A DNA stretch of 64,000 nt from Cytophagales bacterium (lineage in GTDB: Bacteria; Bacteroidota; Bacteroidia; Cytophagales; Thermoflexibacteraceae), in assembly GCA_013299115.1 (NCBI GenBank), contig JAAFKA010000002.1:248001-312000 (forward strand), in the 5' to 3' direction. A program made the position numbers and the translations under genes. The notes under the pieces were generated by a model that worked only from the letters and a program-made list of their open reading frames with translations, was not told the origin of the DNA and ran no database searches. This document shows, in pieces, positions 39,214-47,702 of this stretch. Numbering within the stretch: position 1 is the stretch's first letter; every line of letters begins with the position of its first letter.

Positions 39214-39349
39214 TGAGGGAAATATCAAAAAACTACCAGAAATCAAGAGATTACGCATTTCGAGAAGCTTGAGAAACCCAAGAGGATTCAATACAACAGT
39301 TAGAAATATGGTTAATTTAGTCTTTTGTTTAATTATTATAAAAAAAAAT

Positions 39350-39391
39350 TAAACAAAATTTTGTTTATTATTTTGTTTAGTTTTATATTTG
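39350..39391 (+). promoter_or_regulatory. Upstream palindrome-promoter P1
   Basis: A perfect 18-nt palindrome, TAAACAAAATTTTGTTTA (39350-39367), overlaps the -33 TTTG (39360-39363). A 20-nt gap leads to TATATTTG (39384-39391), a perfect Bacteroidota -7 box. A protein bound to the palindrome would cover the -33. Transcription would begin near 39398. Confidence 0.65.
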
Positions 39392-39397
39392 TATTCT

Positions 39398-39550
39398 TCA
39401 ACAAAGTAATGAAAAGTAATCTTTGTGGTATGCTTTTGTGATATACTTCAGAGTAGTTTGTGGGTTTAATTTAAACAAAGTAGAATGATTAAAAATAGTC
39501 TGAAAAGACTAAAAACACGCAAAAAAGCCTTATTTTAAGGCTTTTTTCGT
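39398..39550 (+). ncRNA. Candidate small RNA or leader transcript between P1 and its terminator
   Basis: About 150 nt run from the expected P1 start to a strong intrinsic terminator at 39521-39547. The only ORF is ten codons from the ATG at 39409 (MKSNLCGMLL), so it is either a leader peptide or none. A small AGTC-tgaaaa-GACT hairpin precedes the terminator. This is inferred from signals only; no RNA family is recognised. Confidence 0.45.
39521..39547 (+). terminator. Strong intrinsic terminator
   Basis: AAAAAAGCCTTA, a TTT loop and TAAGGCTTTTTT form a perfect 12-bp stem ending in a T-run. It separates P1 from P2. Confidence 0.85.
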
Positions 39551-39598
39551 TTTTTCAGAATTTTATTTAGTTTTGTTTAATATATTTTCAAAAATAGT

Positions 39599-39640
39599 TA
39601 AACAAAAATTTGTTTATTTGTTTAATCTTATATAGTTTTG
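39599..39640 (+). promoter_or_regulatory. Palindrome-promoter P2 of the ECF sigma gene
   Basis: The near-perfect palindrome TAAACAAAAATTTGTTTA (39599-39616) overlaps -33 TTTG (39609-39612). Exactly 20 nt later lies TAGTTTTG (39633-39640). The geometry is identical to P1. Transcription would start near 39647, leaving a leader of about 23 nt before the sigma ATG. Confidence 0.65.
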
Positions 39641-39669
39641 TTCCCATAAATCTTAAACAGATAAGGATT

Positions 39670-40179
39670 ATGTCTCCATCAGAATTTAATTCGACCCTCA
39701 GCCAAATGATAAGCAGTTTGAAGCCATTTGCGTTGAAACTCACAAGAGATGCAGAAGATGCAAATGACTTGTTGCAAGAAACAATGTTAAAAGCCTACAC
39801 CAATCGGGAGAAATTTGCAGAAGGCACAAACCTTAAAGCATGGCTTTATACCATCATGCGTAATACTTTCATTACCAACTACCAACGCCTATTGCGAAGA
39901 AATACTTTCATCGATACCACCGAAAACTTGCATTACATTAATTCTAATGAAAGTATTACCCAAAATTTGGCTTATTCTACTTTTGCTATGCAAGACATAG
40001 AAAAAGCAATGAAGACGGTAGATGAGGCATATAGCACACCCTTTGTGATGTATTTTAGAGGTTTTAAATATCACGAAATTGCAGAAAAACTACACATTCC
40101 AATTGGTACTGTAAAAAACAGAATACATATTGCTCGTCAAGAACTCAAAGACAAATTGCAAATGTATAAGTACAAATAA
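39670..40179 (+). CDS. ECF-type sigma-70 family RNA polymerase sigma factor
   Basis: The ATG at 39670 (MSPSEFNSTLSQMI), preceded by AGGATT, gives 169 aa; an upstream ATG at 39610 falls inside the promoter P2 and is rejected. Region 2 is clear (FALKLTRDAEDANDLLQETMLKAYTNREKF...LKAWLYTIMRNTFITNYQR), as is region 4 (VMYFRGFKYHEIAEKLHIPIGTVKNRIHIARQEL). No anti-sigma gene follows, so it is probably not of the classical membrane-sequestered type. Control appears to be transcriptional, through the palindrome that covers the -33 of P2. The target promoters are unknown. It is monocistronic, with a terminator at 40292-40318. Confidence 0.92.
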   Translation: MSPSEFNSTLSQMISSLKPFALKLTRDAEDANDLLQETMLKAYTNREKFAEGTNLKAWLYTIMRNTFITNYQRLLRRNTFIDTTENLHYINSNESITQNLAYSTFAMQDIEKAMKTVDEAYSTPFVMYFRGFKYHEIAEKLHIPIGTVKNRIHIARQELKDKLQMYKYK

Positions 40180-40413: not shown

Positions 40414-41409
40414 TTGCCTCGTCATTTTATTTTTTTGTTACTTTGTTTGACTTGCTTGTGCTTAGTCGACATCGCCATAGGCAGTGTGTATATTCCTGTG
40501 TGGTCTGTTGTACAAATACTATTTGATAAACAAGCAATTCATTCGGCAAGTTGGGAGTTGATAGTCCTCGATTACAGACTGCCAAAAACTTTAACGGCTG
40601 TTTTGGCGGGGGCAGGACTTGCTGTTGGTGGTTTGCAGATGCAAACTTTGTTTCGCAATCCCCTTGCCTCACCAGATTTGTTGGGCATTTCTGCGGGTGC
40701 TTCGTTGGGCGTTGCTGTTGTCATTTTTCTAAAAAATAGTTTGCCTACGTGGGCGTGGTTGCAAGGACAGTGGCTCTTGATTGGAGCTGCTACGGCTGGG
40801 GCAGTAGCTGTTTTGTTGGTTTTGTTGTGGGTTGCTCACCATGTTTCAGCCACTTCGCTGTTGGTCATGGGTTTTTTGTTTACGGCTTTGATTGGTGCTT
40901 TTGTCAATTTGTTGCAATATTTCAGCCGTCCCGATACGTTGCAACAATATATGATTTGGACTTTTGGCTCTCTGCATAGCACTTCTTGGCAGCAACTCCC
41001 CTATTTGGCAGTGGTGGTAAGTTTGGGTTTGGGCTTGGCTTATCTCCTCCAAAAACCTCTGAATACTTGGCTTTTGGGAGAACAATACGCCCAAAGTATG
41101 GGTGTAAACAGCCAACAAGTCAAAATTTTGCTTATGTTGTCCGTTGGATTATTGGCAGGAGGAATTACAGCTTTTTGTGGTTTTATCAGTTTTGTGGCTG
41201 TAGCAGTCCCACATTTGGCTTTTTATTGGTTGCGAACAGCCAATCTGAAACTATTGTTGCCTATGACAGCCTTGTTGGGTGCTATTGTCTTGTTGGCTTG
41301 CGATATTTTATGTAGTCTTTCGCCCAGCAGTCATATTTTGCCTATCAACATTGTAACAGCTTTGTTGGGTTCTCCTGTAGTGTTAGGTTTGCTTTGGCGA
41401 AAAGGATAA
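40414..41409 (+). CDS. FecCD-family ABC transporter permease (iron siderophore/haem/cobalamin type)
   Basis: A 331-aa inner-membrane protein with about nine to ten hydrophobic helices. It shows the family motifs DYRLPKTLTAVLAGAGLAVGGLQMQTLFRNPLASPDLLGISAGASLG at the N-terminus and LLAGGITAFCGFISFVAVAVPHLAFY in the conserved coupling region. It must start at TTG 40414 (MPRHFIFLLLCL); no in-frame ATG exists before residues 70-80, and family alignment needs this N-terminus. The three 15-nt repeats directly precede the start. The binding protein and ATPase that complete such importers are not adjacent. The substrate is unknown. Confidence 0.9.
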   Translation: MPRHFIFLLLCLTCLCLVDIAIGSVYIPVWSVVQILFDKQAIHSASWELIVLDYRLPKTLTAVLAGAGLAVGGLQMQTLFRNPLASPDLLGISAGASLGVAVVIFLKNSLPTWAWLQGQWLLIGAATAGAVAVLLVLLWVAHHVSATSLLVMGFLFTALIGAFVNLLQYFSRPDTLQQYMIWTFGSLHSTSWQQLPYLAVVVSLGLGLAYLLQKPLNTWLLGEQYAQSMGVNSQQVKILLMLSVGLLAGGITAFCGFISFVAVAVPHLAFYWLRTANLKLLLPMTALLGAIVLLACDILCSLSPSSHILPINIVTALLGSPVVLGLLWRKG

Positions 41410-41430: not shown

Positions 41431-42609
41431 TTACTTCAACATTTTTTGTGCAAATAACATATCATTGGCTATGTTTAGCACATCTTGCATGACTTCGGCT
41501 GCTGTTTTTTCAGAGTCTATGTATTGATTTAGAGATTTAAACCTGTCTTGCGATACATAACGCATCGTTTTTTCGTCCCAGTTTGCCAGCAATTCGTCAT
41601 ACACTTTTTTGGCATCGCCATCAGTGCAAACAATGGGAATAATAGGCACTTGTTCTTGTTTGGCATATTGGTAGGTTTCGTAAGTTCCGCCCACACCCCC
41701 AATCAAAATGACAATAGCTGCTTTTTCCAAACAAGCCAACCATTCGTCTGCTCCTGCCTTAACGGTTTGGATTTTGCCTCCCTTAAATTCAGGAGTTTTG
41801 CCTTCGGGGACTACTTGCAATAATTTAGCTGAAAGTGCTTCTCTACGTTGGGCTTGTACTTGGGCAAAACTTTCTGCCACCACATAATCTACGCCCTGCC
41901 AACCACCAGAAATAAGGTTATAATTGTAGTCGCCAATTAACTTGCCCAAATGTTTGGCACACCAATAAATAGGCTGGGGTAAGTCGTACCTGCCTGTACC
42001 CACTACGTAAATACTTTGCTCGGTTCGGCTTTTTTCGGCTGCTTGCTGCATTTGGGCGGTGATGCTGCCCACAAAACCCTCTAAATTTGTTTCGGCATCT
42101 ATTGACAATTTATCACTAACAAAAACTATAAAATCGTCTATCGTATCGGCAATTTCTTTAAATTGAGCCACTATTTCGTTTAGAGCAAAGTTTTCCTCTT
42201 TGTCTGTGGTAGAATCAACCATTTTTTTCAATTTGGTGTATTGCTCTTTCCAATATTGAATGTAAGCCAATTTGCCCTCGTGAGCATAAATGGAGGCATC
42301 AGACAAGATAATAGGAAAAATTTGTTGGGCGTATTGCTTGCTGTGTTTCATTATCTCTACGGCTTCGAACATACAATACTCTGACCGCAAATATTTATCA
42401 CTGATGACAATAATCAGGTAATTGCCTCGCCCTATTTCTCGCATAAAATCCTTGATACTGTTGCCCAAGACAAGGTGATTTTTATCTCTGATGAGTTTGT
42501 ATTTTTGCTCTACCAAACGGTTACAAATTTTATCTACCAATACTTCACGTTGTTTGCCTACTTCGGTTTTTTGGTCTTTCCAAGCGTAGGAAATATAAAT
42601 ATTGTTCAT
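41431..42609 (-). CDS. TIR-SLOG fusion protein, candidate NAD-linked defence effector
   Basis: The ATG at 42607-42609 (MNNIYISYAWKD) puts the TIR fold at its usual distance from the N-terminus; an ATG 8 codons upstream is also possible. In the resulting 392 aa, residues 1-140 are a TIR domain with box 1 IYISYAW and the helix SEYCMFEAVE, whose Glu82 matches the NADase Glu of catalytic TIRs. Residues 180-390 form a SLOG/LOG-like Rossmann domain with a glycine loop (ISGGWQGVDYVVAESF) and a second nucleotide motif (ILIGGVGGTYETYQYA). In Thoeris defence a SLOG domain in ThsA senses a signal made by a TIR protein; here both sit in one chain. Convergent with fecCD; no helper gene is visible. Confidence 0.88.
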   Translation of the reverse strand: MNNIYISYAWKDQKTEVGKQREVLVDKICNRLVEQKYKLIRDKNHLVLGNSIKDFMREIGRGNYLIIVISDKYLRSEYCMFEAVEIMKHSKQYAQQIFPIILSDASIYAHEGKLAYIQYWKEQYTKLKKMVDSTTDKEENFALNEIVAQFKEIADTIDDFIVFVSDKLSIDAETNLEGFVGSITAQMQQAAEKSRTEQSIYVVGTGRYDLPQPIYWCAKHLGKLIGDYNYNLISGGWQGVDYVVAESFAQVQAQRREALSAKLLQVVPEGKTPEFKGGKIQTVKAGADEWLACLEKAAIVILIGGVGGTYETYQYAKQEQVPIIPIVCTDGDAKKVYDELLANWDEKTMRYVSQDRFKSLNQYIDSEKTAAEVMQDVLNIANDMLFAQKMLK

Positions 42610-42618
42610 GGTTTTTGG

Positions 42619-42649
42619 TTGGTTTGGTTGCAAAAAAGTTCTACCTTTG
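42619..42649 (+). promoter_or_regulatory. Probable promoter of the GT-C gene
   Basis: TTG at 42619-42621, a 20-nt gap and TACCTTTG at 42642-42649, about 75 bp before the ATG at 42725. It lies just upstream of the divergent TIR-SLOG start. Confidence 0.45.
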
Positions 42650-46214: not shown

Positions 46215-47702
46215 ATGAGCAACCAAAATAAAAAAATTATCGTCATCGGGGCAGGTTTTGCAGGTTTGTCCGCCGCCACCACCTTAGCCAGCGAAGGCTT
46301 TGACGTACAAATCATAGAGAAAAACGAGATGGCAGGGGGCAGAGCCAGAGTCTTTTCGGCACAAGGCTTTACGTTTGACATGGGTCCCAGTTGGTACTGG
46401 ATGCCCGATATTTTTGATAAATATTTTGCTCATTTTGGTAAAAAAACCTCCGATTATTACCAATTAGTTCGTTTGTCCCCGTCTTATACAGTAGTTTTTG
46501 GCGAAAATGATTTTGTGGATATTCCTGAAAATATGGCTGCTTTACGCCAATTATTTGAAAGTTATGAAGCTGGAAGTGCTGCCCGTTTAGACAAGTTTTT
46601 GGCACAAGCCGAGTACAAATACAGAGTCGGTATAGACGAATTTGTAAACAAACCCAGTCTTTCTATCTTGGAGTTTTTACAACCCAACTATCTATTTGAT
46701 GCTTTGCGTTTGCAAATATTTCAATCTTTTCATACACACGCAAGAAAATTCTTTTCTCACCCCAAGTTGTTGAAAATAGTAGAGTTTCCTGTCTTGTTTT
46801 TGGGTGCTGTGCCTCAAAACACACCTGCTATGTATAGCCTGATGAACTATGCAGACATGGCATTAGGCACATGGTATCCAATGGGTGGTATGCACGAGAT
46901 AGTGCGGGCAATGGTCAAGTTGGCTGAGGAAAAAGGAGTGAAATTTCATTATAATCAGGCAGTTAGCAAAATAGAGTTTAGTGGCAAAACAGCCAAAAGA
47001 GTAATCACTTCGGAGCAGACCTTTGAGGCAGATGCAGTGATTGGCGGGGCAGACTATCACCACATAGAGCAGCAGATTCTACCTGCGGAGTTTCAGACTT
47101 ACGACAAAGCCTATTGGGACAGTCGAGTCATGGCACCTTCTTCTCTAATTTTTTATTTGGGAATTAATAAAAAATTACAAAACTTACATCATCACAATTT
47201 GTTTTTTGACGAGGATTTTGCTTTGCACGCAGAAGAAATTTATAGCCAACCGCAATGGCCTTCTAAACCTTTGTTTTATGTTTCTGCCCCTTCGCAGACC
47301 GATGCCAGCGTAGCCCCCGAAGGTTGCGAAAACCTGTTTGTGTTAATACCTGTTGCCCCCAATATTCAAGATACGGAGGAAATCAGGGAACATTATTACA
47401 AGGTGGTAATGGACAGATTGGAAAAACTTACGCAGCAATCCATTCGTCCTCATGTGATTTATAAACGGAGCTATGCCCACAAAGATTTTATTTCAGATTA
47501 TAATTCGTTTAAGGGCAATGCTTACGGCTTGGCAAATACGCTAAGACAGACGGCTATTTTGAAACCTACACTTAAAAATAAAAAAACAACTAACCTCTAC
47601 TTTACAGGGCAACTAACTGTACCAGGTCCTGGTGTACCTCCTTCTTTAATTTCAGGGCAAGTGGTGGCAAAAGAGGTGAAGAATATGTTGGAGAAAAGTT
47701 AA
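46215..47702 (+). CDS. crtI: Phytoene desaturase / CrtI-like carotenoid oxidoreductase
   Basis: A 495-aa FAD enzyme. The dinucleotide-binding motif IVIGAGFAGLSAATTLA opens the protein and continues with IIEKNEMAGGRARVFS; family landmarks DMGPSWYWMPD and the closing NLYFTGQLTVPGPGVPPSLISGQ are intact. Members of this group desaturate phytoene or modify carotenoids, giving the yellow-to-orange pigment of many Bacteroidota. Whether it is crtI or a related carotenoid desaturase/ketolase cannot be settled without the rest of the pathway; phytoene synthase (crtB) is absent here. The start ATG leaves a normal N-terminus. Confidence 0.87.
   Translation: MSNQNKKIIVIGAGFAGLSAATTLASEGFDVQIIEKNEMAGGRARVFSAQGFTFDMGPSWYWMPDIFDKYFAHFGKKTSDYYQLVRLSPSYTVVFGENDFVDIPENMAALRQLFESYEAGSAARLDKFLAQAEYKYRVGIDEFVNKPSLSILEFLQPNYLFDALRLQIFQSFHTHARKFFSHPKLLKIVEFPVLFLGAVPQNTPAMYSLMNYADMALGTWYPMGGMHEIVRAMVKLAEEKGVKFHYNQAVSKIEFSGKTAKRVITSEQTFEADAVIGGADYHHIEQQILPAEFQTYDKAYWDSRVMAPSSLIFYLGINKKLQNLHHHNLFFDEDFALHAEEIYSQPQWPSKPLFYVSAPSQTDASVAPEGCENLFVLIPVAPNIQDTEEIREHYYKVVMDRLEKLTQQSIRPHVIYKRSYAHKDFISDYNSFKGNAYGLANTLRQTAILKPTLKNKKTTNLYFTGQLTVPGPGVPPSLISGQVVAKEVKNMLEKS

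Follow-up and report, generated by a model that had tools for sequence, protein, structure and literature searches.

A conserved inverted repeat upstream of a Cytophagales ECF sigma factor gene and its probable place in a light regulon of the Bacteroidia

The window analysed here is a stretch of 64,000 nucleotides from the genome of a Cytophagales bacterium (GenBank assembly GCA_013299115.1, contig JAAFKA010000002.1, positions 248,001 to 312,000 of the forward strand), and it contains a gene for an extracytoplasmic function (ECF) sigma factor preceded by a densely patterned intergenic region. A sequence-only reading of this region had described two 18-nt palindromes with the same geometry, and both are present: in each, a TTTG stands exactly 20 nt before a TAnnTTTG box, a type of box that we take to be the Bacteroidota housekeeping promoter. 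The corresponding promoters are called P1 (distal) and P2 (next to the sigma factor gene), and their features, with the palindromes taken by direct reading of the window, are as follows (match values refer to the inverted 9-mer arms discussed below).

39324..39357, no strand: P1 upstream (distal) dyad, TTTGTTTAA-N16-TTAAACAAA, 18/18
39350..39367, no strand: palindrome 1, TAAACAAAATTTTGTTTA, formed by the right arm of the distal dyad and a further left half-site containing the -33 TTTG; together with its twin, unique in the genome
39372..39405, no strand: P1 promoter dyad, TTTGTTTAG-N16-TTCAACAAA, 16/18, overlapping the -7 box
39384..39391, plus strand: P1 -7 box, TATATTTG, 20 nt after the TTTG at 39360-39363
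39398..39547, plus strand: candidate short P1 transcript, fold z -3.0 with the terminator included
39409..39441, plus strand: putative ten-codon open reading frame, MKSNLCGMLL, read from the sequence
39521..39547, both strands: hairpin resembling an intrinsic terminator, 12 pairs (3 G-C), then a T run
39572..39606, no strand: P2 upstream dyad, TTTGTTTAA-N17-TTAAACAAA, 18/18
39599..39616, no strand: palindrome 2, TAAACAAAAATTTGTTTA, formed by the right arm of the P2 upstream dyad and a further left half-site containing the -33 TTTG
39617..39650, no strand: P2 promoter dyad, N16, 14/18, left arm perfect, right arm degenerate (TCCCATAAA)
39633..39640, plus strand: P2 -7 box, TAGTTTTG, 20 nt after the TTTG at 39609-39612
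39670..40179, plus strand: ECF sigma factor gene, 169 aa, whose orthologue is followed by crtI at 52 of the 80 named loci
46215..47702, plus strand: crtI, phytoene desaturase, 760.6 bits to NF058655 (CrtID) against a cut-off of 640

Elsewhere in the window, positions 41431-42633 on the minus strand encode a protein in which a TIR domain is joined to one of the SLOG/STALD type (Pfam TIR_2 and STALD); TIR-SLOG/STALD proteins are of a kind seen in anti-phage defence.

The palindrome pair and its 20-nt geometry are real and not a product of chance, since the palindrome pattern TAAACAAAWWTTTGTTTA occurs at only two places in the genome of 5,499,092 bases and the reversed control pattern at none; palindrome 2 is imperfect at its two central bases. 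The sequence TTTTGTTTA is present 16 times in the window, as against 5.89 expected and a number reached in none of 100 shuffles, and six of the 16 copies fall between 39323 and 39607. A scan for TTGACA/TATAAT, which is unsuited to Bacteroidota promoters, gave fewer sites in the window than in shuffles. Each palindrome consists of the right arm of an upstream dyad joined to a further left half-site, from which the -33 TTTG comes, and it is at this point that the earlier description needs revision: the palindromes exist, but judged from the sequences compared the conserved unit is instead a dyad of 34-35 bp, TTTGTTTAA-N16/17-TTAAACAAA, composed of inverted 9-mers. Window dyads matching at 16/18 or better (N15-18, same orientation) lie only in the region 39324-39650.

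Evidence for the dyad as the conserved unit comes from the sigma factor gene in related bacteria, for which we compared 80 named loci, the best 80 of 504 places encoding a relative, with best-segment protein identities of 68-80%. Among the 81 sigma upstream regions (these 80 and the window), a dyad of at least 15/18 is found with spacing N16 in 71 (shuffle mean 2.1) and with spacing N17 in 62 (shuffle mean 1.55), by far the two highest of all spacings. Lower peaks also exceed shuffles, including those at N2-N7 (up to 34/81), N12 and N18 and at a number of outward spacings (up to 25/81), and on account of these other spacings and outward half-site pairs the exact binding unit is not settled. 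A proximal dyad of at least 16/18 is present in 63 of the 80 loci, as against 0.05 in shuffles; tandem dyads (both at least 14/18) 41-48 nt apart and within 160 nt of the start codon, as in the window, are present in 31 of 80, and some of the remaining loci have one clear dyad only. The TAnnTTTG box lies inside the proximal dyad 40 times among the 66 loci with a good one, 8-10 nt before the right arm, such that the right arm covers the likely transcription start. The P2 box, which starts 9 nt before the right arm, conforms to this arrangement, whereas the P1 box starts 13 nt before it. The degenerate right arm of the P2 promoter dyad has a similarly degenerate counterpart in a same-genus relative (locus L033), where a second, different sigma-factor-like gene was seen by eye directly after the first (L033:2518-3204). 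Helical phasing of the distal with respect to the proximal dyads was considered and dropped, as by eye it seemed absent.

The dyad is not confined to sigma factor genes. At the level of the order, the exact dyad (N14-18) occurs in 29 of 59 genomes, that of the window included, and the reversed control pattern in one (G047). Counted by coordinates, 30 of the 41 order-level dyads lie at the sigma factor gene, and the neighbours of the remaining 11 include PTPS-folE (in the window's own genome, G047 and G025), a photolyase gene (G022), carH (G039), carH-crtI (G026) and genes for DUF4397 proteins (G015, G038 and G053); the photolyase and the Amino_oxidase crtI frame were identified by Pfam and the other neighbours by eye. 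In the window's own genome this dyad stands between PTPS-folE, with the PTPS start 280 nt away, and a thioredoxin-like gene; the genes diverge from the dyad, so its target is ambiguous. The stretch from this dyad to PTPS-folE includes a short tandem array in which a peptide-like frame repeats (L114:1232-1480).

Across the class, the exact N16/17 dyad was found in 121 of 395 Bacteroidia genomes, representing 76 of 197 genera, and the reversed pattern in two genomes; with a wrong spacing (N20-24) the dyad was found in 4 of 395 and its reversed pattern in 10. Searches for exact matches undercount the dyad. From the search listing we examined 65 loci with 68 dyads, which are not a random sample, and scanned 83 flanking genes. 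These include 16 with sigma-70 region 2, nine Amino_oxidase genes (all nine matching the window's crtI), seven fasciclin, five PTPS, four bacteriorhodopsin, four DUF4397 and two with MerR and B12-binding domains, among 25 of 65 families. Photolyase, folE, flavin reductase and msrA (methionine sulfoxide reductase) each appear as single dyad neighbours, and one dyad is common to a beta-carotene 15,15'-dioxygenase gene (blh) and a divergent rhodopsin gene. Rhodopsin genes number a few at most among the thousands of genes in a genome, an estimate made without a random-gene control set, and for this reason the gene content beside the dyads looks far from random. Other neighbours have no obvious link to light, namely fasciclin, DUF4397, tRNA synthetase, ATP-grasp ligase and further genes; a lysyl-tRNA-synthetase-like gene lies across a dyad from a sigma factor gene, and four dyad loci have no gene within reach. 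Secreted DUF4397 and fasciclin-domain proteins recur beside the dyad at many class loci, as judged by eye (L208, L214, L215, L221, L235, L250, L254, L261, L263 and L270).

The regulator that reads these dyads is most likely a MerR protein of the CarH/LitR kind, to judge from gene neighbourhood and co-occurrence. The sigma factor itself or a TetR/MarR-type regulator had been put forward at first, and it is the position of carH beside the dyads, together with its presence in the same genomes, that turns us from both. Of the 65 class loci, 18 have a carH-like gene immediately beside the dyad, and the gene order varies: eight are carH-dyad-ECF (found by script), eight carH-dyad-crtI and two dyad-carH-crtI (found by coordinates). 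In the 80 named loci, carH lies upstream of the ECF sigma factor gene in 20 and crtI downstream in 52, and neither is found in the examined flanks of 28. With carH called at E <= 1e-20, the 395 class genomes comprise 119 with both dyad and carH, two with the dyad alone, 134 with carH alone and 140 with neither; carH is thus present in 119 of 121 dyad genomes as against 134 of 274 others (Fisher p 2.7e-26, with shared ancestry ignored). Family f30 (g56) has carH in 10 of its 15 genomes and family f31 (g57) in 8 of its 9, yet the exact dyad occurs in 0 of these 24, from which it follows that the pairing is not universal or that the site drifts. The operator has possibly changed in these two families.

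The same evidence has to be weighed against a different dimeric regulator, of the CRP/FNR, TetR/MarR or a similar family, which would bind the dyad and have carH merely as one of its targets. A symmetric dimer of the ordinary kind would fit an inverted repeat, the dyad stands before carH itself in several genomes as it would before any target, 134 carH genomes are without an exact dyad, and a CRP/FNR protein is also described as involved in Thermus, as far as the sources drawn on here go. Against such a regulator stand the recurrence of carH beside the dyad in several gene orders and its presence in nearly all dyad genomes; the TAAACA of the half-site fits the CarH repeat core TnnACA, and among the 25 of 65 flanking families no regulator family other than the sigma factor and MerR/B12 was met. 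We therefore consider a different regulator unlikely and retain the CarH/LitR-like protein.

In the window's own genome, MerR and B12-binding domains are combined in the product of a single gene (G000:C23), which is unlinked to the sigma factor gene and has no dyad of at least 14/18 in the 4.7-kb stretch examined. Its product matches MerR_1 (50.4 bits) and B12-binding_2 (37.6 bits), both above cut-off, and Pfam gave no B12-binding Rossmann domain in it. A profile search of PDB sequences returned best matches at E ~1e-17 with CarH among them, the CarH chains in question being presumably those from Thermus, and the NCBIfam CarH equivalog NF052513 gave 86.9 bits against a cut-off of 400. By these profiles the protein has the MerR helix-turn-helix and a B12-binding-type region, yet it is not filed as CarH. 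The W-x9-EH motif, which lies over the B12 upper face, is present in all 53 carH-like rows compared (some rows being the same gene twice). Of the B12-ligand motif E/DxHxxG, the histidine of ExHxx is present in 52 of 53 rows and the following Gly in 7 of 53, its place being taken otherwise by Ser, Thr or Ala; given ExHxxS/T/A in most rows and a Rossmann domain absent from the Pfam results for the window genome's protein, a B12-independent sensor is possible.

Directly after the sigma factor gene, the window encodes a FecCD-type ABC permease (40414-41409, plus strand) whose best NCBIfam match is the vitamin B12 permease BtuC, at 189 bits and so below the cut-off of 334. A BtuC-like permease beside a possible B12-type regulator is suggestive.

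The distal half of the region can now be considered. In 37 of the 80 named loci, a distal dyad of at least 16/18 lies 140-350 nt upstream of the start codon (shuffle mean 0.3), so that palindrome 1 is part of a conserved distal operator; these 37 and the window make up 38 distal-dyad loci. With the same dyad before the sigma factor gene in most of the 80 loci and its distal copy in 37, the proposal that one regulator controls both P1 and P2 is well supported. In Larkinella, Spirosoma and Rudanella, repeated TTCCACA/TGTGGAA-type palindromes were noticed by eye immediately following the distal dyad, at loci L101, L103, L104, L106, L107, L089 and L092.

A further proposal, that a functional small RNA some 150 nt long arises from P1, acting on the sigma factor mRNA or its targets, we consider improbable, more so than a different regulator. 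In its favour, the promoter box, the terminator and the fold are all present in the window, and P1, having full operators, would be co-regulated with the sigma factor gene. A TAnnTTTG box also follows the distal dyad of the same-genus relative, so the distal promoter may be common to the genus, and P1 may well be transcribed in the window species. Comparison with relatives, to which the sequence-only reading had tied its proposal, upholds the operators and counts against the RNA. Searched against 28 relatives, a 181-nt window stretch gave nothing at the sigma locus among the matches listed (E to ~0.5), those listed being short AT-rich or terminator-like. At 4 of the 38 loci (the window, the same-genus L033, L062 and L083) the distal dyad is followed by a TAnnTTTG at no more than 60 nt, and at 3 of 38 (the window, L101 and L104) a terminator-like hairpin stands between the distal dyad and the proximal promoter, the window being counted in both; in the same-genus relative no terminator was found between the distal and proximal sites, and its upstream gene is divergent. 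Rfam gave nothing above gathering scores in the window. A conserved small RNA is not supported, the sequences outside the window lending it little.

Least probable of all, and in our view very unlikely, is autoregulation, in which the ECF sigma factor would recognise the half-sites as its own promoter elements. They do occur often upstream of the sigma factor gene, and TTTGTTTAA stands at a near-fixed distance from the TAnnTTTG box. Against this, the motif has two-fold symmetry and its right arm coincides with the likely start or lies beyond it, and it also precedes crtI, rhodopsin, folE and photolyase genes at loci where no sigma factor gene was seen adjoining it, though those genomes may have one elsewhere.

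Returning to a CarH/LitR-like repressor as the reader of the dyads, we hypothesize that the sequence 39324-39650 serves to regulate an ECF sigma factor gene belonging to a light or photo-oxidation regulon of the Bacteroidia, a reading that we hold to be probable. The tandem dyads cover the core promoter, with TAnnTTTG inside the proximal one and the right arm of the latter at the likely start; another, distal pair is located upstream of them. In the dark, the repressor (G000:C23) would bind the dyads and block RNA polymerase; light, through B12 or another chromophore, would release it; and the sigma factor would then switch on crtI and other carotenoid genes, and perhaps more. The genes folE, photolyase and rhodopsin would be under direct control of the dyad, as would crtI at loci without a sigma factor gene. 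The distal cluster, with palindrome 1, would most likely strengthen repression through cooperative binding or looping, and the transcript of its P1 promoter, which in the window would end at 39547, has a candidate role only. The window's crtI, 6 kb downstream of the sigma factor gene, is a possible target of the sigma factor; visual inspection of the sequence preceding it revealed no clear motif that would mark an ECF target promoter. A second crtI-family frame, with one internal TAA, lies elsewhere in the same genome (G000:C56:20863-22359, L122).

At a larger scale, and with somewhat less assurance, we lean towards the view that a light regulon spanning a class of the Bacteroidota is wired by a single inverted-repeat operator, TTTGTTTAA-N16/17-TTAAACAAA, with a CarH/LitR-like protein as its reader. 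The regulon would take in the genes for carotenoids, for rhodopsin together with the enzyme that supplies its retinal, for photolyases and pterins, and for the secreted fasciclin and DUF4397 proteins, with an ECF relay in the Cytophagales and some other families and a direct carH-dyad-crtI arrangement elsewhere. If this is true, one short site predicts light-responsive genes in many pigmented or rhodopsin-bearing Bacteroidota and names a candidate for their regulator. Such an operator or regulon in Bacteroidota was not recognised in the literature, which was searched in part, mostly by title and the start of the abstract. In the flavobacterium Chryseobacterium lacus, also of the Bacteroidota, carotenoid pigment is induced by light, and its authors, in the part of the paper cited, write of a light-regulated mechanism of unknown pattern (PMC7064467). 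Two other leads were set aside: MliR of Bizionia, a MerR-like protein of the Bacteroidota, is in the cited part described without an effector domain and in connection with iron (PMC9478572), and a match to TTTGTTTAA in PMC6692529 lies, in the portion concerned, within a gene sequence and is not a motif.

Among known systems, the closest in circuit is LitR-LitS-crt of Streptomyces coelicolor, in which, according to the cited part of the account, a regulator of MerR/B12 type acts on an ECF sigma factor gene and through it on carotenoid genes (PMC12705666). The 80 named loci include 20 at which the carH-like gene is followed by the ECF gene and then by crtI, and part of the loci share the gene adjacency of LitR-LitS in this way; in the window's genome carH is unlinked and crtI lies 6 kb away. 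The window system differs in belonging to another phylum, in its Bacteroidota promoter type and in its inverted-repeat operator. Activated LitR is moreover said, in the part cited, to promote transcription of litS (PMC12705666), whereas the site geometry in the window suggests repression.

CarH and CarA of Myxococcus, Thermus and Bacillus resemble the proposed regulator in joining a MerR DNA-binding domain to a C-terminal part of B12-binding type, and their operators, as far as the cited part of the source describes them, likewise lie over the promoter, include the TnnACA found in the half-site and serve crt targets (PMC9304148). The same part gives the CarH operators of Thermus and Bacillus as tandem 11-bp direct repeats, nnnnTnnACAn, and mentions inverted repeats of M. 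xanthus for CarH/CarA as well (PMC9304148). The arms described here are by contrast inverted, of 9 bp and separated by N16/17, and ExHxxG is mostly ExHxxS/T in the carH-like rows.

The class II LitR proteins PplR and PmlR of Pseudomonas control, in the cited part of the report, a regulon that includes phrB, folE and cryB, PplR binding paired hexamers, T(G/A)TACA-N12-TGTA(C/T)A, on the promoter (PMC9758184). The likeness lies in a light regulon with photolyase, folE and cryptochrome genes and in paired sites over the promoter; the differences are another arm sequence and spacing, a short LOV protein as partner and, in the portion cited, no report of an ECF relay (PMC9758184). On this comparison, the window system would combine a relay like that of LitR-LitS with a regulon content like that of PplR, under an operator unlike those of both CarH and PplR.
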